Source: Metallosphaera hakonensis JCM 8857 = DSM 7519
Lineage (GTDB): Archaea; Thermoproteota; Thermoprotei_A; Sulfolobales; Sulfolobaceae
NCBI RefSeq assembly: GCF_003201675.2
Contig: NZ_CP029287.2
Coordinates: forward strand, 1,550,001 to 1,614,000
Length of the DNA stretch: 64,000 nucleotides
Direction of reading: 5' to 3'
The notes beneath the pieces were generated by a model. The model saw nothing but the letters and a program-made list of their open reading frames with translations. It made no database searches and had not been told where the DNA came from. This document shows, piece by piece, positions 1,105 through 22,475 of this stretch (its first letter is position 1; every line of letters starts with the position of its first letter). Made by a program: the position numbers and the translations under genes.

Positions 1105-1424
1105 AGGAAAAATGCGGAATAATATGGAACAATAGATTAATAGAAATTAAAAATATCTCTTCTGGCAGCCATGATTTTTTGATGGATCCGGAACAATTTT
1201 ATAGATACATAGATGGAATACAGGCTATAGTTCACTCGCATACCGAGCTCTGTTCGCCTAGCGAGGAAGATCTAGAGAATATGAAAGTGTGGAGGATTCC
1301 TTGGATAATAGCTTCAAAGAGTTGTATCGCGGCATATTTAGTTACTGACGTTGGTGTAACTCAAATCAGCATTGATCCCCTTTTCCTTGAGGAATTGAAG
1401 GACTTTGTCATGCATCTTCCTTAG
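1092..1424 (+). CDS. JAMM/MPN-domain (Prok-JAB type) metalloprotease-like protein
   Basis: A 110-aa single-domain protein. The core reads HSHTELCSPSEED at residues about 48-60. It matches the JAMM zinc signature HxH...SxxD, although the spacing is one residue shorter than in many Prok-JAB members. JAMM proteins cleave isopeptide bonds of ubiquitin-like modifiers or peptides, and archaea use them on SAMP/Urm1-type conjugates; the substrate here is an inference. The gene starts inside the CBS gene (13-nt overlap). Its last 87 nt overlap the convergent lhr gene. Both C-termini look family-like, so neither gene should be trimmed without further evidence. Confidence 0.7.
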   Translation: MVHIKEKCGIIWNNRLIEIKNISSGSHDFLMDPEQFYRYIDGIQAIVHSHTELCSPSEEDLENMKVWRIPWIIASKSCIAAYLVTDVGVTQISIDPLFLEELKDFVMHLP

Positions 1425-3959
1425 AAACTCCCTTTTATCACTGGCCAATACAACATCGCTGTATTCTTTCGCAAGTATATGATGAGCGAATGGACTTGGA
1501 ACATTATTGGGCCCAATAACCTGTACCTTGATATGTCCATTCACGATCTTGTCTAGTATAATCATAGCGTTTCGAATGTCCATGTAATCCTCCAGGATTT
1601 CCCTCAACGTTTCCGTTAAAACAGGGAATCCAGGCATATCTCTTACTACGTTCATCAATACTTCTGAGTTAATTTGTCTTCTATCAACGCTAGTTTCTCT
1701 TCCCTTATACCTCTTGAGTAACATTAATGAGCGTTCCGCAGTATGCCTGAATCTTCGTTTCACCATTTCTGTTCTTAAAACAACGTCGCTTAGTATCTCA
1801 TACAACTTACTGGGCTCCATCTCTTTCAAAGCCTTCTCAATGTCATAGTCAACCTTTTCTCCTATTGTTAGTACGAATCCGTTATCTGTTATTGATGTTC
1901 TCACGTCCATGTTTAGATCCCTCCCAATTTTCCAAGCTACTGCTCTTGACAATGCGTCTAAAGCCCTTCTGCCAAAAAGCGCGTGGAATATGAAGTTCCT
2001 TCTGTTTTCTTCGTCATCGAATATTTCGATAAGTAAATTTCTATCATCTGGAACTTTCTGGTCTGTAAAATAATACTCTTCGAGGATATAAGTGTATATC
2101 GATCTGGCTGCAGACTTAGATATGTCCAATGTATCCTCTATATATCTTACGATATCATCCCCGGACATTCCTTCCTTTATCATGGTGGCTATCTTTCCTC
2201 TAAAGGAGGATATTTCCATTGCTGACTCTATTGCTAATGGTAACATTTCGGAAAACCAACTGGGAACAGTAGGTCTCTGTCCTTCAGCAGATTTTACCAA
2301 GACACGATTTCCCTTGGACGTGATAAACTCGTATGTCTTTCCTCCAAGTATAAATATATCTCCTGGGGATAATATCTCTACAAATTCTTCCTCCAAATTT
2401 CCCACATACCTTTTTCCCTCAGTAAAAACTGGAATTAGTGATTCCTCTGGTATAGTTCCACTATTCATGTAAAATATCATTCTGGCCCCGCGTTTAGGTC
2501 TTAGTCCTTTATCACCTAATCTAAGCTTTGGATAAACGTTCTTGGAATCTAGACCGTATTTACCAAGTAAGTAGTTTACAACCGAATCAAATTCGTCTCT
2601 AGTTAGTTCCGAAAAGGTATATGATCGTCTTATTACCGAATATAGTTCATCAATACTTGGCTCGGTCATAAGAGACGATGCCAAAATTACCTGAACTAAG
2701 ACGTCCAGCGGTTTCTTAGGTATATGCACGTTATCTATTTTCTTTTCCCTGGCAAGTTTAGTAAGCACGGAACATTCCAGGAGATCATCCCTATCTACAA
2801 CTATCACTCTGCCTTTACTGACCTGTCTAATATGATGTCCTGCACGTCCTATCCTTTGTAGAAGTCTGCTCACGCTTTTAGGGCTACTAAGCAGAAGAAC
2901 AACGTCAATGTAACCTATATCTATCCCTAGTTCTAGGCTCGTGGAAGAGACCACTACCTTGAGCTCCCCGCTTTTGAGCTTGTTTTCAATTTCTAACCTT
3001 ACATCTCTACTTAAACTACTATGATGTGCCCCTATTAAGTCGGCATCGAATAATTTTTCATCTTCCACAATTTTCCTAATTTTATATGAAACTCTCTCAG
3101 CGGCACTTCTTGTATTTGTAAAGACTAAGGTAGTCCTATGTTTCTTAATTTCTTCGATTATTGTTCTGTATATTCCTCTATTTACATCCTCCTCTGAGGA
3201 ATGAATCAAATCGCGTACTGGTGTAATTACCTTAAGGTCCATACTCTTTAGGAACCTAGCGTCCACAATCTTGCAGCTCCTATCCCCCACAAGGAACTTC
3301 GCGACTTCCTCTAGAGGCGATATTGTAGCACTTAATCCAATCCTAACTGGCGGTTTATTACTTAAAAAAGAGTCAAACAACTCCAGGAAACTTGACAGAT
3401 ACGCCCCTCTTTTGCTCCCGGCCAACTCGTGTATTTCGTCGACTACAATCCATTTTACATCCTTAAGTCTTTGGCTAAATTTAGGCGATACTAGAGATAT
3501 TGCAAAAGACTCTGGAGTGGTGATTAGTATATGAGGAGGTTTTTTAAGCATTTTTTGCTTCTCATAAGGGGAAGTATCACTGGTTCTAACCCCTACTCTA
3601 ACCTCCTGAGATAATTTTACTCTAGCTTTTAGTTCTTCCAACGGAATAAATAGATTTTTATGCATATCGTTGTTTAAAGCTCTCAATGGAGAGATATATA
3701 CTGCGTAAACCTTATCCTCAAGTTCGTTTCTTTCAGCTAATTCCAATAATGAATCAAGAATCCCAATAAAGGCCGCCATTGTCTTTCCACTGCCCGTTGG
3801 ACTAGAAATAAGCACATTTTCTCCTGCTTTTATTGTAGGAACGGAGGCTTTTTGGGGTGGAGTAAAACTTCCATATTTCTGTTTAAACCATTGAGCTACG
3901 TAAGGTCTTAAAAGACCAAAGACTTGCTCGTCATCCAACGGTACAGCCTGAGAAATCAT
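1338..3959 (-). CDS. Lhr-family DExH superfamily 2 helicase
   Basis: 873 aa. The helicase core carries Walker A SPTGSGKT near residue 53, the DEIH box near 173, SAT (motif III) near 208, and QRIGRAGHH (motif VI) near 372. A long C-terminal winged-helix and Lhr-specific region follows. Lhr enzymes translocate 3'-5' on ssDNA and unwind RNA-DNA hybrids or forked DNA in repair. The gene heads the minus-strand block (with GT2, ParB-like, nth) that sits near ups in Sulfolobales. Published work on the S. acidocaldarius ups region describes a helicase in this position. Its 3' end overlaps the convergent JAMM gene by 87 nt. Confidence 0.88.
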   Translation of the reverse strand: MISQAVPLDDEQVFGLLRPYVAQWFKQKYGSFTPPQKASVPTIKAGENVLISSPTGSGKTMAAFIGILDSLLELAERNELEDKVYAVYISPLRALNNDMHKNLFIPLEELKARVKLSQEVRVGVRTSDTSPYEKQKMLKKPPHILITTPESFAISLVSPKFSQRLKDVKWIVVDEIHELAGSKRGAYLSSFLELFDSFLSNKPPVRIGLSATISPLEEVAKFLVGDRSCKIVDARFLKSMDLKVITPVRDLIHSSEEDVNRGIYRTIIEEIKKHRTTLVFTNTRSAAERVSYKIRKIVEDEKLFDADLIGAHHSSLSRDVRLEIENKLKSGELKVVVSSTSLELGIDIGYIDVVLLLSSPKSVSRLLQRIGRAGHHIRQVSKGRVIVVDRDDLLECSVLTKLAREKKIDNVHIPKKPLDVLVQVILASSLMTEPSIDELYSVIRRSYTFSELTRDEFDSVVNYLLGKYGLDSKNVYPKLRLGDKGLRPKRGARMIFYMNSGTIPEESLIPVFTEGKRYVGNLEEEFVEILSPGDIFILGGKTYEFITSKGNRVLVKSAEGQRPTVPSWFSEMLPLAIESAMEISSFRGKIATMIKEGMSGDDIVRYIEDTLDISKSAARSIYTYILEEYYFTDQKVPDDRNLLIEIFDDEENRRNFIFHALFGRRALDALSRAVAWKIGRDLNMDVRTSITDNGFVLTIGEKVDYDIEKALKEMEPSKLYEILSDVVLRTEMVKRRFRHTAERSLMLLKRYKGRETSVDRRQINSEVLMNVVRDMPGFPVLTETLREILEDYMDIRNAMIILDKIVNGHIKVQVIGPNNVPSPFAHHILAKEYSDVVLASDKREFLRKMHDKVLQFLKEKGINADLSYTNVSN

Positions 3960-3998: not shown

Positions 3999-5390
3999 CT
4001 AAACCTCTCTTTTGAAGGTAGCTACAGTGAAGATATATCCCATGGAATAGTAAAGGAGCCACAATCCTGTAATCCAGGCTGAGTGAACTAGGTATATCAA
4101 AGCAGAAACCAGGAAAACTATTCCAAAGGCAGCAATTGGATATCCTATTGTAGTTTGTACTTTGACTCCCTTTGGAGTAACTACGTACTTTCTATGTTCT
4201 CTCAAACCTGAGATCAGTCCTATCAATATGAACGGCGAGATAGCTACTGTGTAAGAGGAGATCTTGCCAAGTGATCTCAGTGCCTCAATCAGCTTGAATC
4301 CTTGCTTTAAGGCGTTCTTTACGAAGTTATATCCATAAATTGAAAGTGAAACCATCCAGAGGAAAATAACAGGAGTTCTTAAGTAATCAGGTACCCCGTA
4401 AATTACACCTGCGAATGAAAATATGGCAAGAGCGAGAGCAGCAAGGAAAGTTAAAGCTATAGGTACATATTGTAAAAGGAAAATTAATATATCAATTTTC
4501 TGCTTTATGGTTAAACTCTTGCTCATAATATCTTTAAATCGCCTTGTCAGCACCTCAATGCTACCCATTGCCCATCGAGTTTGCTGAACGTAGAAGGAAA
4601 CGAGGTTATCCGGCACTTCGACGTAAACAGGGGAAGTAGAAGAGCAAATTCTCTTTCCACTCCTTAGCAATCTGGCTCCAATTTCAAGGTCATCCTGTAC
4701 CATGGATGGGTCCCACGGGCCCACGTTCTCTATTGCTTCTCTCTTAAACATTGTGCCACATCCCACTGGAAAAATCCTTAAGCCTACTTTATCTCTCCCA
4801 TTCAATAGCGCTCTGTCAGCTATGGCAGTAGAAATCATAACACCTTTGGCTAGAGTGGAATGATTGTTATTGGAGTATCCTATCCAACTTAAAGTAACGG
4901 CGTCACAACCCAATGCTCTTAAATGATTAAATGCCTTTATCAATGAATTCTCCTCCAGTTTTGCGTCTACGTCTAACGTTAATATTAGATCGCCTTTAGA
5001 AAGAGAATAGCCGTAAGCTAGTGCACCACTCTTATAACCTATTTTTTTCTCTCTTCTTACAATTTTTACGTCGAGTCCTTCAGGTATTTTTAAATTGTGC
5101 ACTAGATTATTGAAATAATCTTCCGAATCATCAGATATGACTATTACTTCCAATCTGTTCTTATCCCATTTAATTGAAGATAAATTGCTAAGGAGGCTTT
5201 GCAGGGTTTCTTGCTTTTCTCCTTTGATTGGAACAAGAATAGATAAGTTTGGAAGATTCGAGTCATATAATGGTTCTAAGCTGTCATCAAATTTCATCCC
5301 GTTTCTGAAAAGGATATATTGGTAGATTAAAAGCAGGCTGGGTATTACAAATATTAGTACAGCTAGGATGGCCTGAGCCAGTAAATTCAT
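3999..5390 (-). CDS. Membrane GT2 family glycosyltransferase
   Basis: 463 aa. One N-terminal membrane segment (residues 5-27) precedes a cytoplasmic GT-A domain with the metal-binding DxD (LTLDVDA, near 140) and the QxxRW motif (QQTRW, near 270) found in processive and cellulose-synthase-like GT2 enzymes. Four or five membrane segments follow in the C-terminal third. It probably transfers sugars from a nucleotide or lipid donor during glycan assembly. The ups-linked GT of S. acidocaldarius has been tied to surface N-glycosylation, which fits the role of pili in recognising cells of the same species. It shares a 4-nt ATGA overlap with the upstream ParB-like gene. Confidence 0.82.
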   Translation of the reverse strand: MNLLAQAILAVLIFVIPSLLLIYQYILFRNGMKFDDSLEPLYDSNLPNLSILVPIKGEKQETLQSLLSNLSSIKWDKNRLEVIVISDDSEDYFNNLVHNLKIPEGLDVKIVRREKKIGYKSGALAYGYSLSKGDLILTLDVDAKLEENSLIKAFNHLRALGCDAVTLSWIGYSNNNHSTLAKGVMISTAIADRALLNGRDKVGLRIFPVGCGTMFKREAIENVGPWDPSMVQDDLEIGARLLRSGKRICSSTSPVYVEVPDNLVSFYVQQTRWAMGSIEVLTRRFKDIMSKSLTIKQKIDILIFLLQYVPIALTFLAALALAIFSFAGVIYGVPDYLRTPVIFLWMVSLSIYGYNFVKNALKQGFKLIEALRSLGKISSYTVAISPFILIGLISGLREHRKYVVTPKGVKVQTTIGYPIAAFGIVFLVSALIYLVHSAWITGLWLLYYSMGYIFTVATFKREV

Positions 5391-5971
5391 TGCAATCTCA
5401 CTCTCTCCTTTTGGATAATAAAATCATATAGATGTCTACTGCTTTTGGGTGGGAGTCTTTTTCCCTTGCTTGCAATCTTGAGTATGATCTCCTTGTCAAG
5501 GCTAGGAGGTCTAAGACCTTCAGCAGGGTTTCTATCAATAGATATTCCGAGCTTTCTAAGCATTTGTTCTATCCACTCAAGCTTCCAATATGTTTCAAAT
5601 ACAGAATTTGAACATATTCTGATTTTCTCAATTGTGGCACATACACCACCATCAGATTCCACGGACTGTAAGAAAGCTCTTACAGCCTTAGTCAAAGAGA
5701 ATCGCCTATACCATATCTCCACGTTCACTCTTGGACTCAGATAACGAATCATATACGCTGGGATTTTTCTATAACCTAGCATAATTATTGCTTCCCTTCT
5801 ATGATGTCCATCAATCACTAAATAAGAATCCTCATCCACAATAATCGGGATAACTGATTTAGTTTCCCTTATCGATATTATGGTATCGTTGATTTTGTTT
5901 CTCAATATGTCTTCGTGTGGTTTTAGATCCCTAGGATCTACGTAGTCCAGCGTAATATCTGCAGCAGTCAT
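5387..5971 (-). CDS. ParB/Srx-fold protein, SerK-like
   Basis: 194 aa. The N-terminal ParB/sulfiredoxin-like domain has DLKPHED near residue 15 and VIDGHHRREA near 53. A helical C-terminal region ends in KGKRLPPKSSRHLYDF. The PHE plus DGHHR pattern is shared by ParB-type proteins and by the archaeal free-serine kinases (SerK), so either a DNA-related or a serine-kinase function is possible. A ParB-like protein occurs at this position beside ups genes in S. acidocaldarius and has been linked to the UV response. The first 41 nt overlap the end of nth; ITLDYVDPRDLKPHE looks conserved, so I keep the ATG at 5971. Confidence 0.7.
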   Translation of the reverse strand: MTAADITLDYVDPRDLKPHEDILRNKINDTIISIRETKSVIPIIVDEDSYLVIDGHHRREAIIMLGYRKIPAYMIRYLSPRVNVEIWYRRFSLTKAVRAFLQSVESDGGVCATIEKIRICSNSVFETYWKLEWIEQMLRKLGISIDRNPAEGLRPPSLDKEIILKIASKGKRLPPKSSRHLYDFIIQKERVRLQ

Positions 5972-6614
5972 TTATACTACAGGAATTACATTTTGGGTTT
6001 ATTGCTTTACAAGTTTTCCTCCCATGAGTAATAAGAATGAGATGAGCCTCGAGCAAGTCAGACCCAAGACTCTCTTTCCAAAATTCACTGACTTTATCAT
6101 ATCCTCCTTTGATTCCCAGCCTTTCTGATACTCTTAAGATATGAGTATCAACGGGAAACACTCTGTAACCCTTGCATGTAAGCATTACTACGTCAGCTGT
6201 CTTCTTACCTATTCCTGGTAATTCAACCAATCTCTGCCTAGACTCTATCTGGTCTAGATCAAGTAAATTTTCTAGATCACCACCATATTGTTCCATTATC
6301 AACGTTGAAACCGTTTTTATGATCTTTGCTTTGTTGTTGTAAAGTCCAATTGATTTTATGCAATTCTTGATTTTGTCTATTTCTGCTGAACTTAATTTAT
6401 CAGGCGTGACTCCAACTTCGCGTTCAAGTTCTTCATATGCCCTCTTCGCTCCCTTATCAGTTGTGTTCTGGGTCAGTATAGTAGCAATAAGCACCTTGAA
6501 TGGGTCCCTAGTTTTATACCAGACCTCTAAAGCTAAGAACTCTGAAGGCTCCACTTTGTAGGTTTGTTTGAGTTTTTTGATTATATATCCTGGGTCGCAG
6601 CCTGACTCACTCAT
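5931..6614 (-). CDS. nth: Endonuclease III (DNA glycosylase/AP lyase)
   Basis: 227 aa, normal for the family. The helix-hairpin-helix ELPGIGKKTAD carries the catalytic lysine, and FPVDTH carries the catalytic aspartate. The C-terminal CX6CX2CX5C pattern ligates a [4Fe-4S] cluster. The enzyme removes oxidised pyrimidines and nicks abasic sites. It is the first gene of the minus-strand DNA-processing block and is divergent from the small wHTH gene. The 50-nt divergent spacer holds a TATA-like element usable in both directions and an ATTTTC hexamer resembling the Sulfolobales UV motif ANTTTC. Confidence 0.92.
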   Translation of the reverse strand: MSESGCDPGYIIKKLKQTYKVEPSEFLALEVWYKTRDPFKVLIATILTQNTTDKGAKRAYEELEREVGVTPDKLSSAEIDKIKNCIKSIGLYNNKAKIIKTVSTLIMEQYGGDLENLLDLDQIESRQRLVELPGIGKKTADVVMLTCKGYRVFPVDTHILRVSERLGIKGGYDKVSEFWKESLGSDLLEAHLILITHGRKTCKAINPKCNSCSINDCCRYYAGLRRS

Positions 6615-6667: not shown

Positions 6668-6931
6668 ATGTACGAACTAAAGGTAATTCTTGAGGCAGTT
6701 TCGGATGGTGCATTAAACCCAGGAGAAGTAGTAATTAAAACAGGCTTACCTAGATATGAAGTCTTGGCGTTATTTCATGTTCTGGAAGGAATAGGGCTTG
6801 TGGAACCCATCTATTCTAAGGGTTCCCATAAGGTCTATCAGCTCACAGATAAGGGCAAAACTGTTCTAGAGGGTCTACAGAAAGGAGAAATACTAGAGGT
6901 AAAAACAAGGTCTCAAGCTTTGGAAGCGTAA
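6668..6931 (+). CDS. Small winged-helix DNA-binding protein
   Basis: An 87-aa PadR/ArsR-size winged helix. A recognition-helix region (NPGEVVIKTGLPRYEVLALF) is followed by GLVEPIYSKGSHKVYQLTDKG, a typical wing with a terminal helix. It has no ligand domain. A TTG directly precedes the ATG; I choose the ATG at 6668 because it fits a leaderless start about 29 nt from the TATA element. Its end overlaps convergent cbiT by 19 nt. The position between nth and the cbi/ups run makes it a candidate local regulator, which is only an inference from location. Confidence 0.72.
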   Translation: MYELKVILEAVSDGALNPGEVVIKTGLPRYEVLALFHVLEGIGLVEPIYSKGSHKVYQLTDKGKTVLEGLQKGEILEVKTRSQALEA

Positions 6932-7461
6932 AAAATGAAAACAGGGTTTCTAGCGATGAAGGATCTATGTTTTCCTAATTTCTCAGCCTTGCTTACAGTT
7001 ACCTGGATAACATCGTAGTTTCCAAATGTAACTTCCAAGGCTCTAGAAGCTCTGGTTAAAGTGTCTAGAGAGAACGCATTAATGACTATTACTCCATCTC
7101 TTTTAATTAGGTCATAGGCTAAAGTTATGGTTTCTTCCACGTGTTCGCTTCCCCCGATAAATATAGAATCAAAAACAACTGACCTGGATGCAAACCAGGG
7201 CGATAGGGCCTGGATATAATCAGCATAACGGGTGAATTTACGGCCTGGGGCATCGGTTATATATTCGTTTTGATCTAAAGATATAACGTAACAACCCAGT
7301 CTTTCAAGATCACTTGTTACGGCTCCTGTGCCTGTCCCTACTTCAAGAATCCTACAACCAGGAAAAATTTTCATTTTAGATAAAACAATGGCCCTAATCT
7401 CTTGTTTTGTGGGTCCAGGTATATCGCATTCGAATAGTTTGTCATCGAATAGGGGAAACAT
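6913..7461 (-). CDS. cbiT: CbiT, cobalt-precorrin C15-methyltransferase (decarboxylating)
   Basis: 182 aa, a Rossmann-type SAM methyltransferase. GPTKQEIRA near residue 15 and the SAM loop LEVGTGTGAVT near 40 match CbiT, as does FIGGSEHVEE near 101. CbiT methylates C15 and decarboxylates the C12 side chain; together with CbiE (13306-13944) it completes the CobL-type reaction. The ATG shares one base with the stop of upsB, so cbiT is probably translated from the pilus transcript rather than with the other cbi genes 6 kb upstream. No promoter is visible directly before it. Confidence 0.85.
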   Translation of the reverse strand: MFPLFDDKLFECDIPGPTKQEIRAIVLSKMKIFPGCRILEVGTGTGAVTSDLERLGCYVISLDQNEYITDAPGRKFTRYADYIQALSPWFASRSVVFDSIFIGGSEHVEETITLAYDLIKRDGVIVINAFSLDTLTRASRALEVTFGNYDVIQVTVSKAEKLGKHRSFIARNPVFIFYASKA

Positions 7462-7862
7462 TAGCTTTCTGTAAAATATAACCCATTAATCTTTAATATT
7501 ATTGGAGTCGTCACAGTTCTATTACCAATAATAGCTGATAATGCAGTCAAGGACCCGCTATCTAATTCAAACGATGTCCTGAATATGGACTTGCCGATTA
7601 TAACTTCCTGGATATTCGCATTTAGAGAGCCATAGTTGTAAACGTAAATATTACTTGTGGAATTCGATAATTTAATTATTTTAATTTTTATTTCTAATTG
7701 AAGTATTTCATTGGAAATTAACTGATTAGTCGTGGTTTTTTCTGCACTATTTATCTCATGATAATAATATAGAAGGGGTCCGCTTAAAGATAAAACAATT
7801 ATCGTAACTAGAAGAGCTGAAAAAATCTCTGATGCTCCTTTTCTATTTCTAACGAATTTCAT
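7461..7862 (-). CDS. upsB: UpsB, minor or major type IV pilin of the UV-inducible pilus
   Basis: A 133-aa class III prepilin. The basic leader MKFVRNRKG is followed by ASEIF and a hydrophobic stretch to about residue 33. PibD should cleave after the glycine. The rest is a threonine/serine/asparagine-rich extracellular domain with N-glycosylation sequons (NST, NRT). It is fifth in the X-E-F-A-B order that defines the Sulfolobales ups operon. Its ATG overlaps the upsA stop by 4 nt (ATGA), and its stop shares a base with the cbiT start. Assignment as B rather than A rests on gene order. Confidence 0.85.
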   Translation of the reverse strand: MKFVRNRKGASEIFSALLVTIIVLSLSGPLLYYYHEINSAEKTTTNQLISNEILQLEIKIKIIKLSNSTSNIYVYNYGSLNANIQEVIIGKSIFRTSFELDSGSLTALSAIIGNRTVTTPIILKINGLYFTES

Positions 7863-8290
7863 TGGTTCACCGCCAAGACATTGGAGATAGTATCGTAGAG
7901 TTGACCATTCTGCGTTTGGGCTATAACCACGACAGAGTAATAATTACCTGAAACGATATTACTTATTGCGGTGAGGTTCTGTACTTCTTCTCCAGGTTGC
8001 AAAATTATATTAATCGGAATTCTGTCGTTAGTTCCGTTTCCTGTTATGTCAATATATTCCACATGGAGAGCTACATTTCCATTATTTTTTAGTGTATATT
8101 GCAAATATCCAAAACCTCCGGTTGAAGACAGTAACTCATATTGAGTGTAAAGATTTTCATTTGTGGAAAGATTATTGAATAAACCTCTGCTATAACCAAA
8201 CAAAAGCCCTCCTAGGGCTAGAGTAATTGATATTATTAATATGGTTCCCAGAATAGAAGACACACCTTTTCTTGTTTTCAAATTGATCAC
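7859..8290 (-). CDS. upsA: UpsA, type IV pilin of the UV-inducible pilus
   Basis: 143 aa. The prepilin leader MINLKTRKG precedes VSSILGTILIISITLALGG, which forms the assembly helix. PibD (encoded at 24067-24783) is expected to process it. The mature domain is rich in Asn/Gln/Thr/Tyr and carries N-x-S/T sequons. Ups pili aggregate cells of the same species after DNA damage so that they can exchange chromosomal DNA through the Ced importer, which is not in this window. The gene sits 12 nt after upsF and overlaps upsB by 4 nt. Confidence 0.87.
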   Translation of the reverse strand: MINLKTRKGVSSILGTILIISITLALGGLLFGYSRGLFNNLSTNENLYTQYELLSSTGGFGYLQYTLKNNGNVALHVEYIDITGNGTNDRIPINIILQPGEEVQNLTAISNIVSGNYYSVVVIAQTQNGQLYDTISNVLAVNQ

Positions 8291-8302
8291 CTTATGTATG
8301 TG

Positions 8303-9883
8303 TCATAAAATTAATCCGGGTGGGATGAATGAAAGTAAGAGGGTAATTATGGAGACAACGATATACAGCGGAGGGTTCAGCAAGGAGAATCTATAAATCT
8401 TTGAGTACAAGGCTGAGAGCACGAGACTGTATCCTAAGTTAATCAGATTGATTGTGGTTGTGGGGAAATTGGAGATAGCTGACATGGACGAAGTGGCGAA
8501 CCAAAAGAGAAATGGAGTTATGATCGCTAAACCTGTAAATGTTCTAAGTTCCCTTTGGATTTTCATTCTCGAAAGGATTATAGATTCCACTAAATCACTT
8601 AGCTCCTGTACAACCCTCACGCCTTCTATTCCTTTCTTATCTAATATGTTGAGTATTTCAAAGACTAATTTAATCTGATCGTTAGAGACGTCATCAGCTC
8701 TCATTTCTTCTCCTAGTGCAATTTTTTTCCTTATATTATTTATAACCTTAATCGTAACCTTCTCTAAGCCCACATTTCTCAGGTCAATTCTCTCCAATGA
8801 TGTTCTAATACTATATCCTATCTTAGCATAATCTGATATCTCTCTCAGTAATTTCGGTAGATCTCTGAGAATTTTATCTTGATTTATTTGATTAGAAAAA
8901 GATGGATATAGAGCAATCTGAATAGCTATCACTTCTAGAACTATCCTATACAATATATTCAAAGGAATAAAGAGAAGAATAAAGGATCCTAAAAGAGCAA
9001 TTGCCTGAACTCTACTAATCTTAATGTGATGACCTAGCTTAGGCTGTGAAGAGGATATCCAGAGATAGAGAGCCGGAGAAGTGATCAATGGGACTAAAAG
9101 AAGGACAGTGTTATTTCCCCCGCTTAGTCCTTGGAACCCTATTACAATTATAGGAACTAGAAGAAAAATGGAGAACATCACTTCTACGATCTCGGAGGAC
9201 CGGGCAACATATGATGTAAAGGACTCTCTCATGTTTTCCATCAGTCTGTTTAGCAGTTCAATGGATCGTTGACTAATAGATACTCCAGTGTACTGTGAGG
9301 AGATTGCAATTGAATATATCATAGATATTGCGTGACCCTGAATTATCTTAAGCCTATGTTGGATTGCGGTCATAAAGGACTCACCTAGAAACAGATTATA
9401 TTTTCTAATTGCATCAAATTCCTTTTTTAACTCTACAAAGTAACTTGATTGAAGAATATCATTGAAAGCATCTCCTAGTCCGCGTCCCAGTGTTGTGTTC
9501 AGATAAAGTATAATTGCGAAAGGTAAGATTTCCATATTTAATTTCGAGAGGTATTCTTGTTTTTTGATAATTGTGTATATAACAGGATAAAAGTAGATAA
9601 ATACTGCTAGAATTATTAATGGTAAAAAATAATACCCAAATAGAAGAATTGTTACGCCACATATAATCACTAGAAGGAGTAAGGGAAGCCAAATTTTTCT
9701 TGAGATTGCCTCGATCGTCTCTATGTCTCCACCATATATGTCAATACTGGACTTAATAGTGTGATAGAATAGTTTTAGTGAAGAGATTTTAGAAAGAAAT
9801 CCTATATTTCCTATGTAATTAAGTAAGGAAACAATGATATTAATCAATTTATCTAATGGGTTTTTAGATTGTAGCTGTTGCAT
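8303..9883 (-). CDS. upsF: UpsF, polytopic pilus assembly platform protein
   Basis: 526 aa with two T2SSF/TadC-like halves: membrane pairs near residues 68-108, 230-275 and 293-325, then a last hydrophobic group from about 445 to the C-terminus. The cytoplasmic loop around 330-430 has the helical region LLREISDYAKIGYSIRTSLE typical of the family. It anchors the assembly ATPase UpsE and supports pilin insertion into the filament. It overlaps the end of upsE by 20 nt. The length and gene order match the Sulfolobus UpsF membrane proteins. Confidence 0.88.
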   Translation of the reverse strand: MQQLQSKNPLDKLINIIVSLLNYIGNIGFLSKISSLKLFYHTIKSSIDIYGGDIETIEAISRKIWLPLLLLVIICGVTILLFGYYFLPLIILAVFIYFYPVIYTIIKKQEYLSKLNMEILPFAIILYLNTTLGRGLGDAFNDILQSSYFVELKKEFDAIRKYNLFLGESFMTAIQHRLKIIQGHAISMIYSIAISSQYTGVSISQRSIELLNRLMENMRESFTSYVARSSEIVEVMFSIFLLVPIIVIGFQGLSGGNNTVLLLVPLITSPALYLWISSSQPKLGHHIKISRVQAIALLGSFILLFIPLNILYRIVLEVIAIQIALYPSFSNQINQDKILRDLPKLLREISDYAKIGYSIRTSLERIDLRNVGLEKVTIKVINNIRKKIALGEEMRADDVSNDQIKLVFEILNILDKKGIEGVRVVQELSDLVESIILSRMKIQRELRTFTGLAIITPFLFWFATSSMSAISNFPTTTINLINLGYSLVLSALYSKIYRFSLLNPPLYIVVSIITLLLSFIPPGLIL

Positions 9884-11327
9884 ATATGCTCATTCCTCTA
9901 TAGAATTTCCCTATTTCCTCCTGTATGACTCCATTATCGACAATATTTGAATCTATTAGATTGGTTAGAAATTGCTTTCTTTTATTCAATTCGTTTAATA
10001 AGTCGCTTTCTCTATAACCATAGGTCGTTTGAATATATTTAAGCTTTTCAGATGTCTTTAATATTTTAGAGAAATCGTTGGGCTCATATCTTTTAGTCTT
10101 AAATGAATACCATAAAATTCTTTTAAATCTTATCTTACCGTTAGTTTTTTGAGTTTCGTAAATCGCGTTGATCGCCTTAATAACTTTACCATCAGAGAGC
10201 CTTCTGCCTACCAGGATAAATCCCCAAATACTATTTAGAAACATAATGGCTAACTCCTTCGGTAACAAACTCACTACTCTAGTAACGACATCGGAGGGTT
10301 TGCCTCCATGAAAGGTGCTAAAAGAACCATGACCTGACGATGAGGCATGAATCAAAGTTTCGATTTCTTTTCCCCTGACCTCTCCGATGATTAAATAATC
10401 TGGTCTATATCTTAGGGCGAGTCTAGATAAATCTCCAATTGAAACATCATAGGTCGAGGCTAGACTCTGCCTAGAGAAGAATCTTATCCAGTTTTTTCCA
10501 ATTAGATTTAGTTCTGGAGTGTCTTCTATACTCAAAATCTTTGAATCTGGGCTAGTAAAATTTAATAATGCGTTGAGCATAGTTGTTTTTCCTGATCCAG
10601 TAGATCCGACTATAAGGTAGAACGGTTTATACTCCATTAATAACCAAAGGTATGACGCCATTTCGACACTTAAGGAATTGGATTTTATTAGTTCTACTAG
10701 AGATATTGGGGAAACTGGAAATTTTCTGATGTCGAAAGTGGAACCTGGATTCGAGATTTCGTTCGATATGGTTGCGGCAACTCTATGTCCTTCAGGGAGA
10801 GAGAATTCAAGATAGGGTTTGGCTATACTTACAGATTTACTGGCTCTTGTAGCTAATTTCTCAATTATTTTGAGAATTTCTTCTTCCCTATTTATTACTA
10901 TGTTAGTATATAATCTTATATAATTGGAGTATTTCCTATGTATAACGGTGATCGGAAGTCCTGGCCCCATACACTCAATCTCCTCTATGTCTGGATCGGA
11001 GATAGGAACAGTTATTTCGTCATAAAGCAGTTTCTTTTTTAATTCATACATTGCCTTCTCAGTTAGGGAACGATCTAGATTTTTCTTTGTAATAATTTCA
11101 ATTAATTTAGATTCTGCTTCTGTTGTTGTCTTGGAGCTGAAATAAACCTCGTCAAGAATAGAGTTTACTATGTTTTGCTCTGTATTATCAGACTTTTTCT
11201 TTTCTACTATATAAAGTCCCCTTCCATCATCGTCGATAATCGAAACCTTATTTCCGAGAATTGAGTATTCTTCAAGTATCCGTCTACCCATGTTGTTCGC
11301 CAAGACCGAATTAAAAAAAGAGGTCAC
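9864..11327 (-). CDS. upsE: UpsE, secretion/assembly ATPase of the Ups pilus
   Basis: A 487-aa GspE/TadA-type hexameric ATPase. Walker A is VGSTGSGKTT near residue 235. The Asp-box region SIEDTPELNL follows near 270, Walker B is YLIIGEVRG near 313, and the His-box ASSSGHGSFSTFHGG is near 327. It powers pilus assembly at the cytoplasmic face together with UpsF. The ATG lies in a 4-nt overlap with the upsX stop. All catalytic motifs are intact. Deletion of the homologue in S. acidocaldarius is known to abolish UV-induced pili and aggregation. Confidence 0.92.
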   Translation of the reverse strand: MTSFFNSVLANNMGRRILEEYSILGNKVSIIDDDGRGLYIVEKKKSDNTEQNIVNSILDEVYFSSKTTTEAESKLIEIITKKNLDRSLTEKAMYELKKKLLYDEITVPISDPDIEEIECMGPGLPITVIHRKYSNYIRLYTNIVINREEEILKIIEKLATRASKSVSIAKPYLEFSLPEGHRVAATISNEISNPGSTFDIRKFPVSPISLVELIKSNSLSVEMASYLWLLMEYKPFYLIVGSTGSGKTTMLNALLNFTSPDSKILSIEDTPELNLIGKNWIRFFSRQSLASTYDVSIGDLSRLALRYRPDYLIIGEVRGKEIETLIHASSSGHGSFSTFHGGKPSDVVTRVVSLLPKELAIMFLNSIWGFILVGRRLSDGKVIKAINAIYETQKTNGKIRFKRILWYSFKTKRYEPNDFSKILKTSEKLKYIQTTYGYRESDLLNELNKRKQFLTNLIDSNIVDNGVIQEEIGKFYRGMSIYATATI

Positions 11328-13288
11328 GGTACACCGGCAGTTTCAGTTAACTCTTGCAAAGTTAATGCAGATCTAACTGCAGTCATCAAACTCAAAGTAA
11401 CCGAGTTTATTATAAAACGTTTTTCTATGACTAAATTTCCTAGTATAATTTTCATGATGATGGTATTATAGGCTGGATCGAGGGGGAAGAAAACATGAGC
11501 CTTAAAGCCAGTATACACATAAGTGGAGTAGTAAATTTGAATAATTGTATCTACATTTAAAATTGGAATTATATGAAGGTAATTTCCCTCTATCCAAATC
11601 TTGGGCATCTGTATCATTGAATCTTTAATATTAATTTCTATAAAGGGATTAGATTGTTCCACTATTTTTATATTAATATTTCCAGTTTTACTGCTTTCTC
11701 CCTGATTATAAGACTTAATCAAAATTTTTTGGTTATATGTAGGATGAATTCCAATATCATCCCAAAAGAATAACTCATTCTCATATCTCTTAATTTCAGC
11801 GATAATGTTTCCCTTATTAACAACAATCTTCCTCATATTAAGGGGCTTTTTAACTTTAACTATAGGAATTATGCAACTAACACTTGAAATTACTATGTCC
11901 TTGAACAGTAATTCTAGCTTTAGTTCAACTATTTTAGATTTAATCCATCTTATTTCCATTGGAATCTTAATATTCCCATCTTTATCGAGCTTTATTATCT
12001 TAGTAACTGAACCTAAAGATATTCTCAATCTTATTTCAGAATCAACTCTTCTGGACAACCTTAATTTTCCGATAAGAATTGAATTACCATCTCCTTCCTT
12101 TACCTTTCCATTGTTTTCTGCGAGAAACAGCTTGCCTGTGAAGTCTATGTTTATGGGGGGTGAGTTAGTCTTGAAACTTATTGGAGCTTCAATGAAATCC
12201 GACGATAGAGTTATCCCCTCACTATCATTAGATCCTAGATATTCAATCCTTTCATGAATGGCCGAATTTATTTCCTTATTTAAGGTAACCAATAGATCTC
12301 CTTTGGTTAAAGAGTAACCCAAAGGGTATCTAATCAATAGTTTTCCCTCAGAATCGTGGGAAACTAGAACTTCCTGAGTGTTAACTAGGTCAATTACGAT
12401 CACCTTATTATTTGCCAGTAGAACGGCTTTTTTTCTATCTAAGCCAGTTATACTTTCTTTCAACGAGAAAACAGGACTCAGGGTACGGTCTAAAATTATA
12501 GATTTTCTTGGATAAGCTAGAGCTATGAAGGAATCGCTTCCGTCACTCTTTAACGGGTCGATTTTACCTAGATCTTTCCATACTCCTTGAAAATAATATC
12601 TTGCGACACCATCACAACTTCCCAATATCCAACCTTGCCCTTTAGAAATTAAATCGAAATTTTCATTACATAGACCTATTATCCTTTCATTGAATATTAC
12701 CTTATTTTGAAGATCCTGATATATTAATTCATTTTTTTCTAAATTAGCTATAATTCCTCTCACGTCTAATGTTTTCTTGGAGCCATCCCATGTAAGAACA
12801 TCTGTAGATTCATCCTTAACAAGCGAGATTCCAAGTTTTGTGATTCCAATTTTCTTAACATCATCAAATATATATTCCTTATTTCTATAAAAAAGCACTG
12901 TCTTAGAATTTTCCTTTAGGAAAGCTACATTTAATCGTTTTCCGAAAAAGGAAAATTGCTCTCCTTCATATATGTACTTATCCTTAACTCCAAGGATTGG
13001 TCTAATTTCGTCATGAACACTTACGAAATTGATTAACCAGGCCCTTTGACATTCGTCCTCTAAACATTTATGTATATTCTCCTTTCCATCGATTACCTCA
13101 ACGAGAGCATTTCCTCTTTGATATCTCCAGATATCCCCCTTGATGCTGAAACTAGGATAAAGCTGTATGTCTGGCTGCGTTATTGCCGATGTAATTAAAG
13201 AAAAATTACTGTCTTTTTTAAATATCATTCCTTCAATTTCAAAGGGAAGATCTATCTGGTGGATCTCCTCCACTCTGGGTAATTTCAC
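11324..13288 (-). CDS. upsX: UpsX, first gene of the ups operon, function unknown
   Basis: 654 aa without signal peptide or membrane segment. It is predicted to be largely beta-structured, with many short repeats of the form V-x-x-x-D-G and L-I-L/V strands in its first 450 residues, suggestive of a beta-propeller or beta-sandwich. UpsX has no assigned biochemical role. The first GTG (13288) lies only about 21 nt from the TATA-like ATATTTAAC; the in-frame GTG at 13273 would fit that TATA better. The gene begins 17 nt after the cbiE stop. Base composition looks AT-richer than in the neighbouring cobN region. Confidence 0.82.
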   Translation of the reverse strand: MKLPRVEEIHQIDLPFEIEGMIFKKDSNFSLITSAITQPDIQLYPSFSIKGDIWRYQRGNALVEVIDGKENIHKCLEDECQRAWLINFVSVHDEIRPILGVKDKYIYEGEQFSFFGKRLNVAFLKENSKTVLFYRNKEYIFDDVKKIGITKLGISLVKDESTDVLTWDGSKKTLDVRGIIANLEKNELIYQDLQNKVIFNERIIGLCNENFDLISKGQGWILGSCDGVARYYFQGVWKDLGKIDPLKSDGSDSFIALAYPRKSIILDRTLSPVFSLKESITGLDRKKAVLLANNKVIVIDLVNTQEVLVSHDSEGKLLIRYPLGYSLTKGDLLVTLNKEINSAIHERIEYLGSNDSEGITLSSDFIEAPISFKTNSPPINIDFTGKLFLAENNGKVKEGDGNSILIGKLRLSRRVDSEIRLRISLGSVTKIIKLDKDGNIKIPMEIRWIKSKIVELKLELLFKDIVISSVSCIIPIVKVKKPLNMRKIVVNKGNIIAEIKRYENELFFWDDIGIHPTYNQKILIKSYNQGESSKTGNINIKIVEQSNPFIEINIKDSMIQMPKIWIEGNYLHIIPILNVDTIIQIYYSTYVYTGFKAHVFFPLDPAYNTIIMKIILGNLVIEKRFIINSVTLSLMTAVRSALTLQELTETAGVP

Positions 13289-13304
13289 GACACGGGCTAT
13301 CTAT

Positions 13305-13332
13305 GTTAAATATGAGGGGGTTTAATGAAAAT
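13305..13332 (-). promoter_or_regulatory. Candidate UV-responsive promoter of the ups operon inside the cbiE 3' end
   Basis: On the minus strand ATTTTC (13327-13332) matches the ANTTTC motif reported for UV-induced Sulfolobales promoters. It is followed directly by ATTAAAC and, 14 nt further on, by ATATTTAAC (13305-13313). Either could act as the TATA box. The hexamer lies within the last codons of cbiE, so ups could be switched on independently while still being read from the cbi transcript. Confidence 0.45.
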
Positions 13333-13944
13333 AACTTTCAATCCATTATCGTCTATGTTCATCAGATCCATAATGCTCCCTCTATAAATTCTTTGACTCT
13401 CTAGAGTTAAATCCAGGCAAACGCTCATCTCCACTGTTGAACCGATATAACTCATTAGTTTTCTCGCCGTCTGGCCTACATTGAGATTAGGCTCAGGTAA
13501 AATGAAAACACCAAGACCTATCTCCAAAGCGAGTTTAATTTTATCATAATTTTTACCATATCTTGTTGAGAGTAGTACACTATCAATAAGCGGCTCATGG
13601 ATAAGGGAGGCGCATCTTTGAATAGAACTTATACCTGGCTCTATTTGGGAATTCGAAAAGAATTTTCCTAACCCAGCAATCATTGGATCCCCTGTTGATA
13701 GTAGATATGTTCCCTCTTCATCTCCCACAGACTTGATCATAGCGTAAAATTTTTCGTTCTCGTCCAGTTCGATAAGTTCGGCCCTCGTGTAAGGCCTTAT
13801 CATTCTAAGTATTCTTTCAGTTGCAATAACTTTTTTGGCGGTTGCTAATTCTTTGACTAACTTAAGCGTTAAATACTCTGGATTCCCTGGGCCAGCACCG
13901 AAGATCTTAGGCCAAGAATTTGAATGCCTCCTCAGATTTCCCAA
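13306..13944 (-). CDS. cbiE: CbiE, cobalt-precorrin C5-methyltransferase
   Basis: 212 aa of the tetrapyrrole methylase fold. The start region IFGAGPGNPEYLTLK carries the SAM-binding GxGxGxxxxLT motif, and LLSTGDPMIAGLG near residue 82 is the second family motif. CbiE methylates C5 of cobalt-precorrin-7-type intermediates; its usual fusion partner CbiT is encoded separately 6 kb downstream, after the ups genes. The gene overlaps cbiD by 38 nt. There is no obvious downstream start codon that would keep the SAM motif, so the long overlap is probably real. Confidence 0.82.
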   Translation of the reverse strand: MGNLRRHSNSWPKIFGAGPGNPEYLTLKLVKELATAKKVIATERILRMIRPYTRAELIELDENEKFYAMIKSVGDEEGTYLLSTGDPMIAGLGKFFSNSQIEPGISSIQRCASLIHEPLIDSVLLSTRYGKNYDKIKLALEIGLGVFILPEPNLNVGQTARKLMSYIGSTVEMSVCLDLTLESQRIYRGSIMDLMNIDDNGLKVIFIKPPHI

Positions 13945-15055
13945 CTATTTCACCTTCCATGTCTACTAAAATACAATGTACTTTTGCTTTACCTTCAATC
14001 AAATTTGTAGAATTTTCTACAATTCTATTGGCAATATCATTAAAGATGACATCAGCCTTGTAATGCCTTAATATGTTTAAGGCATCATCCGTGGTTTTAG
14101 CATTTAGTATCCTCTTTAGATCCTCATGAGAAACACCGTGTTTTGCAGCATATGCAGTTATGATTTCTAACCGACCGTCTCCGTATTTATAATGGGTATT
14201 CCATATTCCGATTGCGCTTTTTATCAACTTCCCCATATGACCATATAACAATATCTCCCTGAAGCCCCTCTTAGCTGCCGCCTTTAACATGCCTCCAGTG
14301 AAAATGGCCATCTGAACTATGGATCTCTCATCTACCCTCAACTTCCTTCTTGCACTAGTCTCTCCTATATTTCCTGGGACTAATACGACGTAATCCAAAC
14401 CATAATTTCGAGCTACGTCCAACTGTTCCACCATAGATGCGAACCATGAAATTAAACTCATTGGCTTTACAATTCCGCTTGTACCTAGAATGGAAACCCC
14501 ACCCTCAATCCCAAGTTTTGGGTTAAATGTCTTCCTCGATATACTATCCCCTCTAGGTATGATTACCTCTATCTCTGCTCCAAATTTCTCCCCCAGGACT
14601 TCCTTAAGGTTATCAATAAGTTGCTTTCGCGGTACAGGATTTATTGCTGGCTCTCCTGGCTTTACCGGTAAGCCCTTATTTATAACTAAACCTAAACCTC
14701 GAATCGCCTTTAACGTAATGAAACCTATATCATTGTTCAATCTCATTCTGACAATAATTTCCATACCATTGGTATCATCTGGGTCATCCCCTCCGTTTTT
14801 CGTTACCGATGATTCGCACCACTCTCCATCAACTTTTACGTAGTTTAGAGGAATCTCCAGTCTCAGGCCAATTGGAGTAGACACTACTACTGCGTCTTTC
14901 ATTTCTCCCTTAAGCGCATGGGCACACCCCTTCGAAGCAGCGGATAAGGCAGTGCCGGTAGTAAAACCCATTTTTAGTACCTTTCTTTTGGCAGATTTAG
15001 CATTGGATAGAGAAGGCGATACAGGCTGATAATCTAGTGGTATCCTTACGCTCAA
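13907..15055 (-). CDS. cbiD: CbiD, cobalt-precorrin-5B C1-methyltransferase
   Basis: 382 aa. MGFTTGTALSAASKGCAHAL near residue 29 is the conserved N-terminal CbiD motif (G-F/Y-TTGT). GGVSILGTSGIVKPMS near 195 and the glycine-rich stretch around VLVPGNIGE near 235 also match the family. CbiD acts in the anaerobic (early cobalt insertion) corrin route after CbiG opens the ring. The start is a TTG at 15055, which overlaps the stop of the preceding methyltransferase gene (TTGA). The first 25 residues are poorly conserved, so the start is uncertain. Confidence 0.88.
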   Translation of the reverse strand: MSVRIPLDYQPVSPSLSNAKSAKRKVLKMGFTTGTALSAASKGCAHALKGEMKDAVVVSTPIGLRLEIPLNYVKVDGEWCESSVTKNGGDDPDDTNGMEIIVRMRLNNDIGFITLKAIRGLGLVINKGLPVKPGEPAINPVPRKQLIDNLKEVLGEKFGAEIEVIIPRGDSISRKTFNPKLGIEGGVSILGTSGIVKPMSLISWFASMVEQLDVARNYGLDYVVLVPGNIGETSARRKLRVDERSIVQMAIFTGGMLKAAAKRGFREILLYGHMGKLIKSAIGIWNTHYKYGDGRLEIITAYAAKHGVSHEDLKRILNAKTTDDALNILRHYKADVIFNDIANRIVENSTNLIEGKAKVHCILVDMEGEIVGKSEEAFKFLA

Positions 15056-16149
15056 AAGTCTTCACTCCCCCTAAAAGTTGCAATAAAGAAATCTTCCGTA
15101 TCATCAAGATAACTGAAGAATCTTATGAAACGAGAACTTACCCTATCCTGATGGGAAGAGCTGCGACCCTGAATCTCGGTGTCAATTAACCTGTTGGAGA
15201 ACTTCTCCAAGATCAATTCTCCCTCTTCTGGAAAAATAGAACAGACAGAATATACGCCTTTTTTAAAACGAAGTTTAAGCGCTTCGCTAAGCATTGATTC
15301 TTGAATTTTAGCGAAATGGAGAACCTTTTCAGGTGTACGAAGACTCAGAAGGATTGATGGATCCTTGGAAATCAATCCCGAGGTAGTACACGGAGCGTCT
15401 ACTAGGACCTTGTCGGCTCTAATAATGGAGTTCATCGTAGAATCCTGATTCACTATATCTACCCTCGTTAGATTTACTCCGTATTTTAGCAATAAATCTC
15501 TCTCCTTTGCAATTCGATCCTCGTCTAATTCAGCAAGCACTAGTTCCACGTCTCCCTCAGTAATTTCATAGATCAGTTCAGCTTTCAATCCAGGGGCTGA
15601 AGCCATCTCAAATATGAGGTCCCCTCTCTCTGGTTTTAATGCCTCAACAACAGCTACACTTGCCTTATCCTGTATTATTACTTTATATTCCTTGAATTCC
15701 TCTGTTTTTGTAATATTCCCTGAAATCACTTTATAGATATACTTGAAACTCGTATCTCTCTCAAAGATTATTCCTTTACTTTCTAGCGATTTAAGTACCT
15801 TATCTTCATCGCCTTTAATCCTGTTTATTCTAAACCATTGGGCAGTCCCTGATCTTAGAGCTGTAACGTAACTTTCAAAATTAACTAAGTTTCGAAGTCT
15901 TCTCTCCATCCAACCTGGTAATGTGACTTCTGCACCCTCCTTTAGAAACGAAATTACCTTTTTCTTACGTGAACGTCCCTTGAGACCATAATAAGCAAGA
16001 ACTAATTTCCTAGATAGTTCGAAAAGTTCATCGTAGTTTGCATTTTTTATTTTTCTAAATTGTTTGGTCTTTTTGAATGAAATTGGAAGTGGTTGTCCCT
16101 TTTCTATGAAGTATAACACCGTTGATAGAAAATCCACTACGTCACTCAA
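15052..16149 (-). CDS. NOL1/NOP2/Sun-type m5C RNA methyltransferase
   Basis: 365 aa. The SAM-binding part begins near residue 180 (GDLIFEMASAPGLKAELI). KVLVDAPCTTSG near 250 (motif IV) and YSVCSIFPEEGE near 296 (motif VI) supply the two cysteines used by RsmB/NSUN enzymes that make 5-methylcytosine in rRNA or tRNA. The N-terminal 130 residues resemble an NusB/PUA-like RNA-binding region. The TTG start overlaps the cbiC stop by 8 nt. Placement between cbiC and cbiD shows co-transcription but no metabolic link; the RNA target is unknown. Confidence 0.8.
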   Translation of the reverse strand: MSDVVDFLSTVLYFIEKGQPLPISFKKTKQFRKIKNANYDELFELSRKLVLAYYGLKGRSRKKKVISFLKEGAEVTLPGWMERRLRNLVNFESYVTALRSGTAQWFRINRIKGDEDKVLKSLESKGIIFERDTSFKYIYKVISGNITKTEEFKEYKVIIQDKASVAVVEALKPERGDLIFEMASAPGLKAELIYEITEGDVELVLAELDEDRIAKERDLLLKYGVNLTRVDIVNQDSTMNSIIRADKVLVDAPCTTSGLISKDPSILLSLRTPEKVLHFAKIQESMLSEALKLRFKKGVYSVCSIFPEEGELILEKFSNRLIDTEIQGRSSSHQDRVSSRFIRFFSYLDDTEDFFIATFRGSEDF

Positions 16150-16705
16150 TTTCCATCAGGGCTCTTGTAATGCTAACTCCCAGGGCTACTCCTCCCTTTA
16201 CACTTATATTAGTGATGAACTCGACCTTGCTTTGTCTCGCTAACCTCAACTTCGCACTAATAGCATTTACTAGACCTACTGGAACCCCTATAACCAATCC
16301 TGGCCTTGCACCTGAATCTATTAGGTCGAGGAGTTTTTCCAAGGCTAAGGGACTAGTCCCTATTAGCACCGCCCTACCATTAATCTCACTAGCCCAACCT
16401 TCTACAATATCTTGGGACATGTATCTATTATTTTTAACTATAGGTTCCTTATATATTCCTAAATTTCCCAGTGCTACTTTGGCCATTCTTGTATCCACTA
16501 GGATACCTTTTCTAATAAGTTTAGGACCCACAGTTAATGCCTCTTTTGAGAACCTCAAAGTTCCCACAAGATCTAGATCTCCTGTACTTCTGACTGCCCT
16601 AGATACTACCTTTGCCTCTCTCGGGTCTAAAAGGTCCAATACCTCACCTAGAACGCTTCTAACTCTTCGTTCTCCCTCAATGGCGATATTATCCATGTCA
16701 GTCAT
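16142..16705 (-). CDS. cbiC: CbiC-family cobalt-precorrin-8 methylmutase with substituted His
   Basis: 187 aa. The order VVSRAVRSTGDLDLVGTLRFS (split: VVSRAVRSTGD near residue 38, LRFSKEAL near 50) and VDTRMAKVALGN near 70 fit CbiC/CobH. In characterised enzymes the first motif is RVIHATGD, and its histidine moves the C11 methyl to C12. Here the triplet is AGA, so the residue is Arg. GVPVGLVNAISAKLRL near 140 matches the substrate-binding C-terminus. It is the first gene of the cbiC-cbiD-cbiE run. Either another residue does the catalysis, or this is a divergent or inactive form. Confidence 0.78.
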   Translation of the reverse strand: MTDMDNIAIEGERRVRSVLGEVLDLLDPREAKVVSRAVRSTGDLDLVGTLRFSKEALTVGPKLIRKGILVDTRMAKVALGNLGIYKEPIVKNNRYMSQDIVEGWASEINGRAVLIGTSPLALEKLLDLIDSGARPGLVIGVPVGLVNAISAKLRLARQSKVEFITNISVKGGVALGVSITRALMEIE

Positions 16706-21679: not shown

Positions 21680-22475
21680 TTTTGTTTAGCCAGGTTAGTG
21701 ACTCTGTAATGAAACTGGGACCTTGATGGGCTAAGAAGTCACCCTTAGTTACGTATATCGTTGCACTTAACAATTCAGTAAGCCCTCTTCTTTCTAGCGA
21801 TCTTATGAAACGTTGAAGTTCATCTGGGCTTTCCCTCTTGGGTTCATAAATAACTATATCAGGTTCTGCTTCTTTTACGCTCTTAGGATCAGGCTCAACA
21901 TAGGCCTCAACTAGGTTATCGAAAATGTTTCTCCCTCCAGCTAGCCACACCCCATCGCTTATATGCGTTGGAAATCCCGGAGAGATAGGACCTCCCAAAT
22001 CCAGTTCGATGTAAACTGATGGTCTAAGTTGAGGGGTCGGGATTTTATTTATGATTTTCAAAAGCTCAGAATGAAGCTGTCTTGAAGCTAATTGATATCC
22101 AACGGCGTTTCCCACAATCAATATGTTGTTTAGTATTTCCCCAATAGATGTGGCTACCCTTAACGAATACACCGGATATCCTTTATCAATCAGCTCTGAA
22201 GTCAAACGTTTTTGCGCTCCTTGAGTAGTGAAAATGATTTCGGGCTTGAGTTTCTCTAATAATTCATACTTTACGTGAGTGTAACTGCCTAGCTTTAATA
22301 GGTTCTTAGCCTCGGGAGGTCTGTAACTGAACGCATCAGTTCCAACCACAAGTCCACCTGCACCAATTAGAAATAGGGTTTCAGTGGCAGCAGGATCTAG
22401 ACTCACAATTCTCTTGGGCGGGAACTCAATCTCGACAAAATCATCTAGGACATCATTAAATATTTTCTTTTTCAT
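21648..22475 (-). CDS. BtuF/FecB-fold protein without signal peptide
   Basis: 275 aa. FPPKRIVSLDPAATETLFLIGAG and the following LKPEIIFTT are the helical-backbone substrate-binding fold used by BtuF and other metal-chelate binding proteins. There is no signal peptide or lipobox; the protein starts MKKKIFNDVLDDFVEIEFPP. I chose the ATG at 22475 because it forms an ATGA overlap with the cbiH stop. As the third gene of a cbiG-cbiH operon and apparently cytoplasmic, it may bind a corrinoid or cobalt-corrin intermediate rather than serve an ABC importer. That role is inferred from location. Confidence 0.75.
   Translation of the reverse strand: MKKKIFNDVLDDFVEIEFPPKRIVSLDPAATETLFLIGAGGLVVGTDAFSYRPPEAKNLLKLGSYTHVKYELLEKLKPEIIFTTQGAQKRLTSELIDKGYPVYSLRVATSIGEILNNILIVGNAVGYQLASRQLHSELLKIINKIPTPQLRPSVYIELDLGGPISPGFPTHISDGVWLAGGRNIFDNLVEAYVEPDPKSVKEAEPDIVIYEPKRESPDELQRFIRSLERRGLTELLSATIYVTKGDFLAHQGPSFITESLTWLNKTISSWIQSKK

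Follow-up and report, generated by a model that had tools for sequence, protein, structure and literature searches.

In Sulfolobus acidocaldarius the ups pilus genes are arranged in the order upsX-E-F-A-B and are followed by genes for an endonuclease, a ParB-like protein, a glycosyltransferase and a helicase (PMC3892339, PMC5817253). The motif A(N)TTTC drives UV induction there, with a start of its own ahead of each of upsX, upsE and upsA; it reads ATTTTC at upsX and ACTTTC at upsE and upsA (PMC5817253), and ups transcription is already high without UV (PMC3892339). For the cobalamin (cbi) genes, two arrangements invite comparison with Metallosphaera. Other Sulfolobaceae, and Thermoproteaceae, carry a compact contiguous cluster, in Sulfolobaceae far from ups, that runs cbiG-E-XC-H-D-T-L-F (permuted in some genera), with cbiX and cbiC fused and cbiE and cbiT not neighbours; it specifies the same pathway enzymes as the Metallosphaera set but belongs to other CbiD, CbiG and CbiT lineages, and we infer that it is of the kind found in f19 and related families (Thermoproteaceae). 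The second arrangement, a contiguous cbiC-D-E-T-L-F-G-H operon in families f12, f14, f28 and f35, shares with Metallosphaera the C-D-E-T order, the cbiD-cbiE overlap and, in the CbiD tree, the grouping of Metallosphaera and Ca. Aramenus proteins with those of Thermoproteota having this operon (support 93/90). In f35 CobN lies beside the operon, much as CobN/ChlID lie near the cbi genes of Metallosphaera, whereas the Metallosphaera set is split by an RsmB-like gene and ups and has its G-H and L-F pairs elsewhere. Our literature searches found no link between ups and cobalamin.

The window analysed here is the whole 64,000-nt stretch (G000:C1:1550001-1614000) of a 2.54-Mb Sulfolobaceae genome. 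Gene calls and family matches gave the one-direction order cbiC–RsmB-like–cbiD–cbiE–(17 nt)–upsX-E-F-A-B–(1-base overlap)–cbiT (Table 1). The initial annotation had placed and ordered its genes correctly, all on the minus strand, and both junctions were as it described: a 17-nt gap between the end of the cbiE stop codon at 13306 and the upsX start at 13288, and a one-base overlap of the upsB stop and cbiT start codons (TAATG). Its list from cbiE through ups to cbiT is sound, with the omission of the RsmB/NSUN-like methyltransferase gene between cbiC and cbiD. Contrary to what had been supposed, this genome has no one contiguous cbi operon: cbiG-cbiH lie apart from the other genes and cbiL-cbiF are ~0.9 Mb away.

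Table 1. Features of the window, numbered from its first letter.
Feature	Position	Strand	Match or remark
Lhr-type helicase	1338..3959	-	
GT2 membrane glycosyltransferase	3999..5390	-	
ParB-like gene	5387..5971	-	
nth (endonuclease III), first of conserved downstream DNA-processing block	5931..6614	-	HhH-GPD 3.1e-19
Small winged-helix protein gene	6668..6931	+	weak HTH_45 match
cbiT, M type, behind upsB	6913..7461	-	NF001556 2.3e-27; PDB 3e05 1.4e-17
upsB pilin	7461..7862	-	NF046074 152.7 bits (cut-off 70)
upsA pilin	7859..8290	-	NF046073 175.5 bits (cut-off 130)
upsF, membrane protein	8303..9883	-	NF046075 476 bits (cut-off 400)
ACTTTC hexamer (PupsA) within upsF 3' end	8331..8336	-	ends 40 nt before upsA
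upsE, pilus assembly ATPase	9864..11327	-	T2SSE 1.2e-28; position
upsX	11324..13288	-	NF046072 640.6 bits (cut-off 550)
TATA-like ATATTTAA overlapping cbiE stop codon	13306..13313	-	by eye, by analogy with S. acidocaldarius upsX promoter
cbiE, M type	13306..13944	-	TIGR02467 1.2e-21; 38 nt overlap with cbiD
ATTTTC hexamer within last cbiE codons	13327..13332	-	ends 38 nt before upsX; published UV motif A(N)TTTC
cbiD, second ('M') type	13907..15055	-	TIGR00312 362.9 bits (cut-off 200); tree
RsmB/NSUN-like RNA methyltransferase gene, between cbiC and cbiD	15052..16149	-	PF01189 2.2e-24
cbiC, cobalt-precorrin-8 methylmutase	16142..16705	-	Pfam CbiC 1.3e-29
BtuF-like binding protein, beside cbiG-cbiH	21648-22484		
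cbiG-cbiH, M type	22472..24030	-	
CobN-type cobaltochelatase and ChlI/D-like subunit	24905..30174	+	PF02514 1101.6 bits; TIGR02442 1.2e-177

The families of upsX-E-F-A-B are present in order, with UpsX, UpsF, UpsA and UpsB, like CbiD, exceeding the NCBIfam equivalog cut-offs, and the CbiC, CbiD, CbiE and CbiT families were all recognised. CbiE (77.1 bits against TIGR02467, cut-off 92.9) and CbiT (54.5 bits against TIGR02469, cut-off 78.3) scored significantly yet under the curated cut-offs because both are divergent; each still has its assigned family as best match. CbiT has further matches to CbiT proteins of solved structure (3e05 and 1f38) and, judged by its sequence, is a divergent but genuine CbiT. 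Exactly one cbiT and one cbiD occur in each Metallosphaera genome, and these copies therefore serve the pathway. The locus resembles that of S. acidocaldarius in ups order, downstream genes and the spacing of ATTTTC and ACTTTC elements, but differs at both ends: in S. acidocaldarius an intergenic region precedes upsX and the endonuclease gene comes next after upsB, whereas in Metallosphaera the upsX promoter falls within cbiE and the gene after upsB is cbiT. The winged-helix gene, which runs towards cbiT (19 nt overlap) and away from nth, separates the ups-cbiT unit from nth.

A search for UpsX identified 30 Sulfolobaceae genomes that carry it, and the 20-kb stretches around ups were compared (genus codes: g1, Metallosphaera; g2, Ca. 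Aramenus; g4, Saccharolobus-type; g3, g6 and g7, Sulfolobus relatives); Acidianus is not among the genomes named in this comparison. The window's order is present in five of the six Metallosphaera genomes, and since cbiE-ups-cbiT recurs with tight upsB/cbiT spacing in the four besides the window's own, the arrangement is not a matter of chance. In the sixth, G072, cbiC, D, E and T are all absent at the ups locus. Both Ca. Aramenus genomes keep cbiC, D and E beside upsX but have lost the pilus genes (no upsF, A or B) and the M-type cbiT; a cbiT of the other type stands alone elsewhere in the genome. UpsX is retained there together with an UpsE-like protein that has no Walker A (L052 6821-8062; L054). 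When genome contigs were searched with M-type CbiD, the UpsX alignment being too variable for this purpose, the only close relatives named were M. javensis and Ca. Aramenus sulfurataquae. The usual order in most genera is FAD and DsrE-like genes, ups, and nth-parB-GT2-lhr, with cbi genes absent ('DsrE-like' being our working label for a conserved 210-aa protein without a Pfam match). In most g4 and g5 genomes an RsmB-like gene stands between the FAD/DsrE-like genes and ups, adjoining upsX, and even the g8 genomes, which branch early, have FAD/DsrE-like genes in the vicinity of ups. A concatenated tree united g1 and g2 (100/100) and placed them as sister to g4 and g5 with modest support (79/74); rooted on g10, it has g8 and g10 as the earliest branches, where long branches meet. 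In one g8 genome, G119, rpoB matches in two overlapping pieces in different frames (G119:C1:29635-31430; L251, L252), either a split gene or a sequence error.

The presence of ups among the same neighbours in genera lacking the cbi genes identifies the cbi genes as the incomers. We consider it probable, taking the explanation as a whole, that the ups pilus locus was the conserved frame, that genes of a second, divergent cobalamin set came into it, that cbiT thereby joined a UV-inducible unit and that the linkage is tolerated. Entry would have taken place by the time of the last ancestor shared by Metallosphaera and Aramenus, and would have put cbiC-(RsmB-like)-cbiD-cbiE ahead of upsX, with cbiT following upsB. 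The initial annotation had raised the reverse polarity, in which the ups operon was inserted into a cbiC-D-E-T operon and separated E from T. Such an insertion accords with the contiguous cbiC-D-E-T of the M-type relatives in f12, f14, f28 and f35 and with the C-D-E-T order and orientation retained in the window, where the RsmB-like gene separates C from D and ups separates E from T. It is nevertheless improbable: across the family the same flanks recur where no cbi genes are present, with ups already set between DsrE-like/FAD genes on one side and nth (or the winged-helix gene) on the other, and these usual flanks argue against a fresh ups insertion, which would bring new ones. In Metallosphaera the ups genes have a somewhat higher AT content than the genes around them; as this also holds in most other genera, base composition was dropped as a clue to which genes were inserted where.

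Preservation of the C-D-E-T order around the RsmB-like gene and ups makes possible an older interleaved state with later losses, and to this we assign a lesser though appreciable likelihood. The order would then go back to the lineage from which Metallosphaera, Aramenus, g4 and g5 descend, or to an ancestor shared by most of the family, and the other lineages would have lost it once the compact cbi cluster sufficed. M-type CbiG survives as a relic next to a BtuF-like protein close to ups in g4, g5 and G072, and at other places in g3, g6, g7 and g9. Its survival is consistent with such a history, as are the RsmB-like gene at upsX in g1, g2 and most g4 and g5 genomes and the case of G072, which is such a loss within the genus. 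However, extra losses are required, and the g4 and g5 ups loci yielded no trace of cbiC, D, E or T at the thresholds used. Returning to later entry of cbi genes into the ups frame, the set from which they came must itself be old: M-type CbiG was transmitted vertically across g1-g7 and g9, its tree largely following the genera, and the second cbi set therefore predates the ups arrangement in the family. The compact cbi cluster of G072 (G072:C17, L157) groups with G163 of genus g9 and not with its own relatives (support 100/100), which suggests from tree position that G072 exchanged its old set by lateral replacement. The two cbi sets have thus been sorted differently among Sulfolobaceae genera. 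The second-type CbiG is degenerate and present in nearly all genera, and most Sulfolobaceae genomes carry this leftover alongside a complete CbiG elsewhere (L032:17189-18208; L260-L278); the copy in G050 contains an in-frame TAG.

In all seven g1 and g2 genomes with cbiE at this place, ATTTTC occurs in the last cbiE codons and ends 37-39 nt before upsX, against a background density of 0.48/kb; in g3, g6 and g7 the same hexamer is found 37-41 nt before upsX. Both motif codons in cbiE (Ile and Phe) are invariant across the seven genomes, and a single codon is used throughout in only 53 of 1189 invariant-residue columns (4.5%; Ile 2/57, Phe 5/62). The Ile-Phe pair is absent at the motif place from CbiE relatives. 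We saw no ATTTTC by eye at upsX of g4 and g5, in agreement with the published partial conservation. The PupsA element ACTTTC was found in 12 of 12 genomes checked (g1, g3, g6, g7), so that A(N)TTTC stands before both upsX and upsA at the published spacing; the S. acidocaldarius upsE motif was not seen at that spacing in Metallosphaera. A further UV hexamer lies before nth in the window; it was dropped, as no other Metallosphaera genome has it in that position. On the reading in which cbi genes entered the ups frame, the upsX UV promoter would have been retained or rebuilt within the last cbiE codons, and a regulatory hexamer can in this way be held within the codons of an unrelated gene. Aramenus, however, still has the hexamer without the pilus genes, and the codons may therefore be kept for another reason, or by inheritance. 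Upstream of cbiC, at ~30 nt, we noted by eye a TTTTATAGT-like box with similar boxes in several g1/g2 loci, which suggests a separate start for cbiC-RsmB-cbiD-cbiE; cbiC-D-E would thus probably be read from their own promoter.

With cbiT coupled behind upsB and downstream of two UV-type elements, UV induction of ups should carry cbiT. On this sequence evidence, cbiT is most likely the final cistron of the UV-inducible ups unit (PupsX, PupsA), ending against the convergent winged-helix gene, with cbiC, D and E outside that unit. Most likely, transcription of ups extends into cbiT and would supply it at a basal level when there is no stress; DNA damage would strengthen this transcription and raise cbiT, but not cbiC, D or E. 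The initial annotation had proposed that UV raises cbiT through ups; the tight coupling and the two conserved elements bear this out as far as gene arrangement goes, and the rise itself is plausible. Alternatively, cbiT might have its own promoter inside upsB and escape co-regulation with ups. AT-rich stretches lie just upstream of cbiT in the window and in G159, and the TATA-like stretch in the window scored within the top 3.4% of in-gene background, using a de novo matrix that recovered no clear TATA box and gave the scan little power. The other four genomes scored at background, so this stretch is unconserved, and the one-base overlap or few-nt spacing suggests translational coupling; we hold an independent cbiT promoter to be unlikely.

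If cbiT is read with ups, the linkage might have been selected, with damage raising cbiT for cobalamin supply, for example to an adenosylcobalamin-dependent class II ribonucleotide reductase acting in repair. The position of cbiT behind two UV-type elements, tightly coupled in five genomes, would suit such a role, and a class II NrdJ family match was obtained in all Metallosphaera genomes searched. Yet cbiT alone of the pathway is so placed, and in the window none of cbiC, cbiF, cbiG, cbiH and cobN is preceded by the hexamer at this distance. A reductase of this kind is also present in G072, which does not have the linkage, and a rate-limiting role of CbiT is unsupported. We accordingly rate selection for the linkage as very improbable. 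An adaptive linkage is unsupported, as is the idea of B12 for repair even with a class II ribonucleotide reductase present. Similarly remote is the composite proposal that DNA damage in Metallosphaera induces cbiT together with the DNA-exchange pilus, from an upsX promoter in the cbiE frame, and makes corrinoid synthesis part of the damage response (e.g. for a B12-dependent ribonucleotide reductase). The linkage was most likely tolerated rather than selected; a tolerated accident is favoured by the narrow distribution of the ups-cbi order (Metallosphaera plus Aramenus), its loss in G072 and the lack of a motif at the other cbi genes checked. A stress-induced operon can, it would appear, gain an essential biosynthetic gene as its final cistron, and the locus offers a clean test of whether gene order alone is enough to make a vitamin gene part of the response to DNA damage, knock-outs being available in Metallosphaera (M. 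sedula).

Two further features of the surroundings were recorded. A CobN-type cobaltochelatase gene and a ChlI/D-like gene lie beside cbiG, in Aramenus as well (L164, L165). The winged-helix protein (~87 aa) is highly conserved in g1, g2, most g4, g5, g6 and g11, where its gene lies between the ups/cbiT end and nth, and it is possibly a regulator of the ups/cbiT locus.
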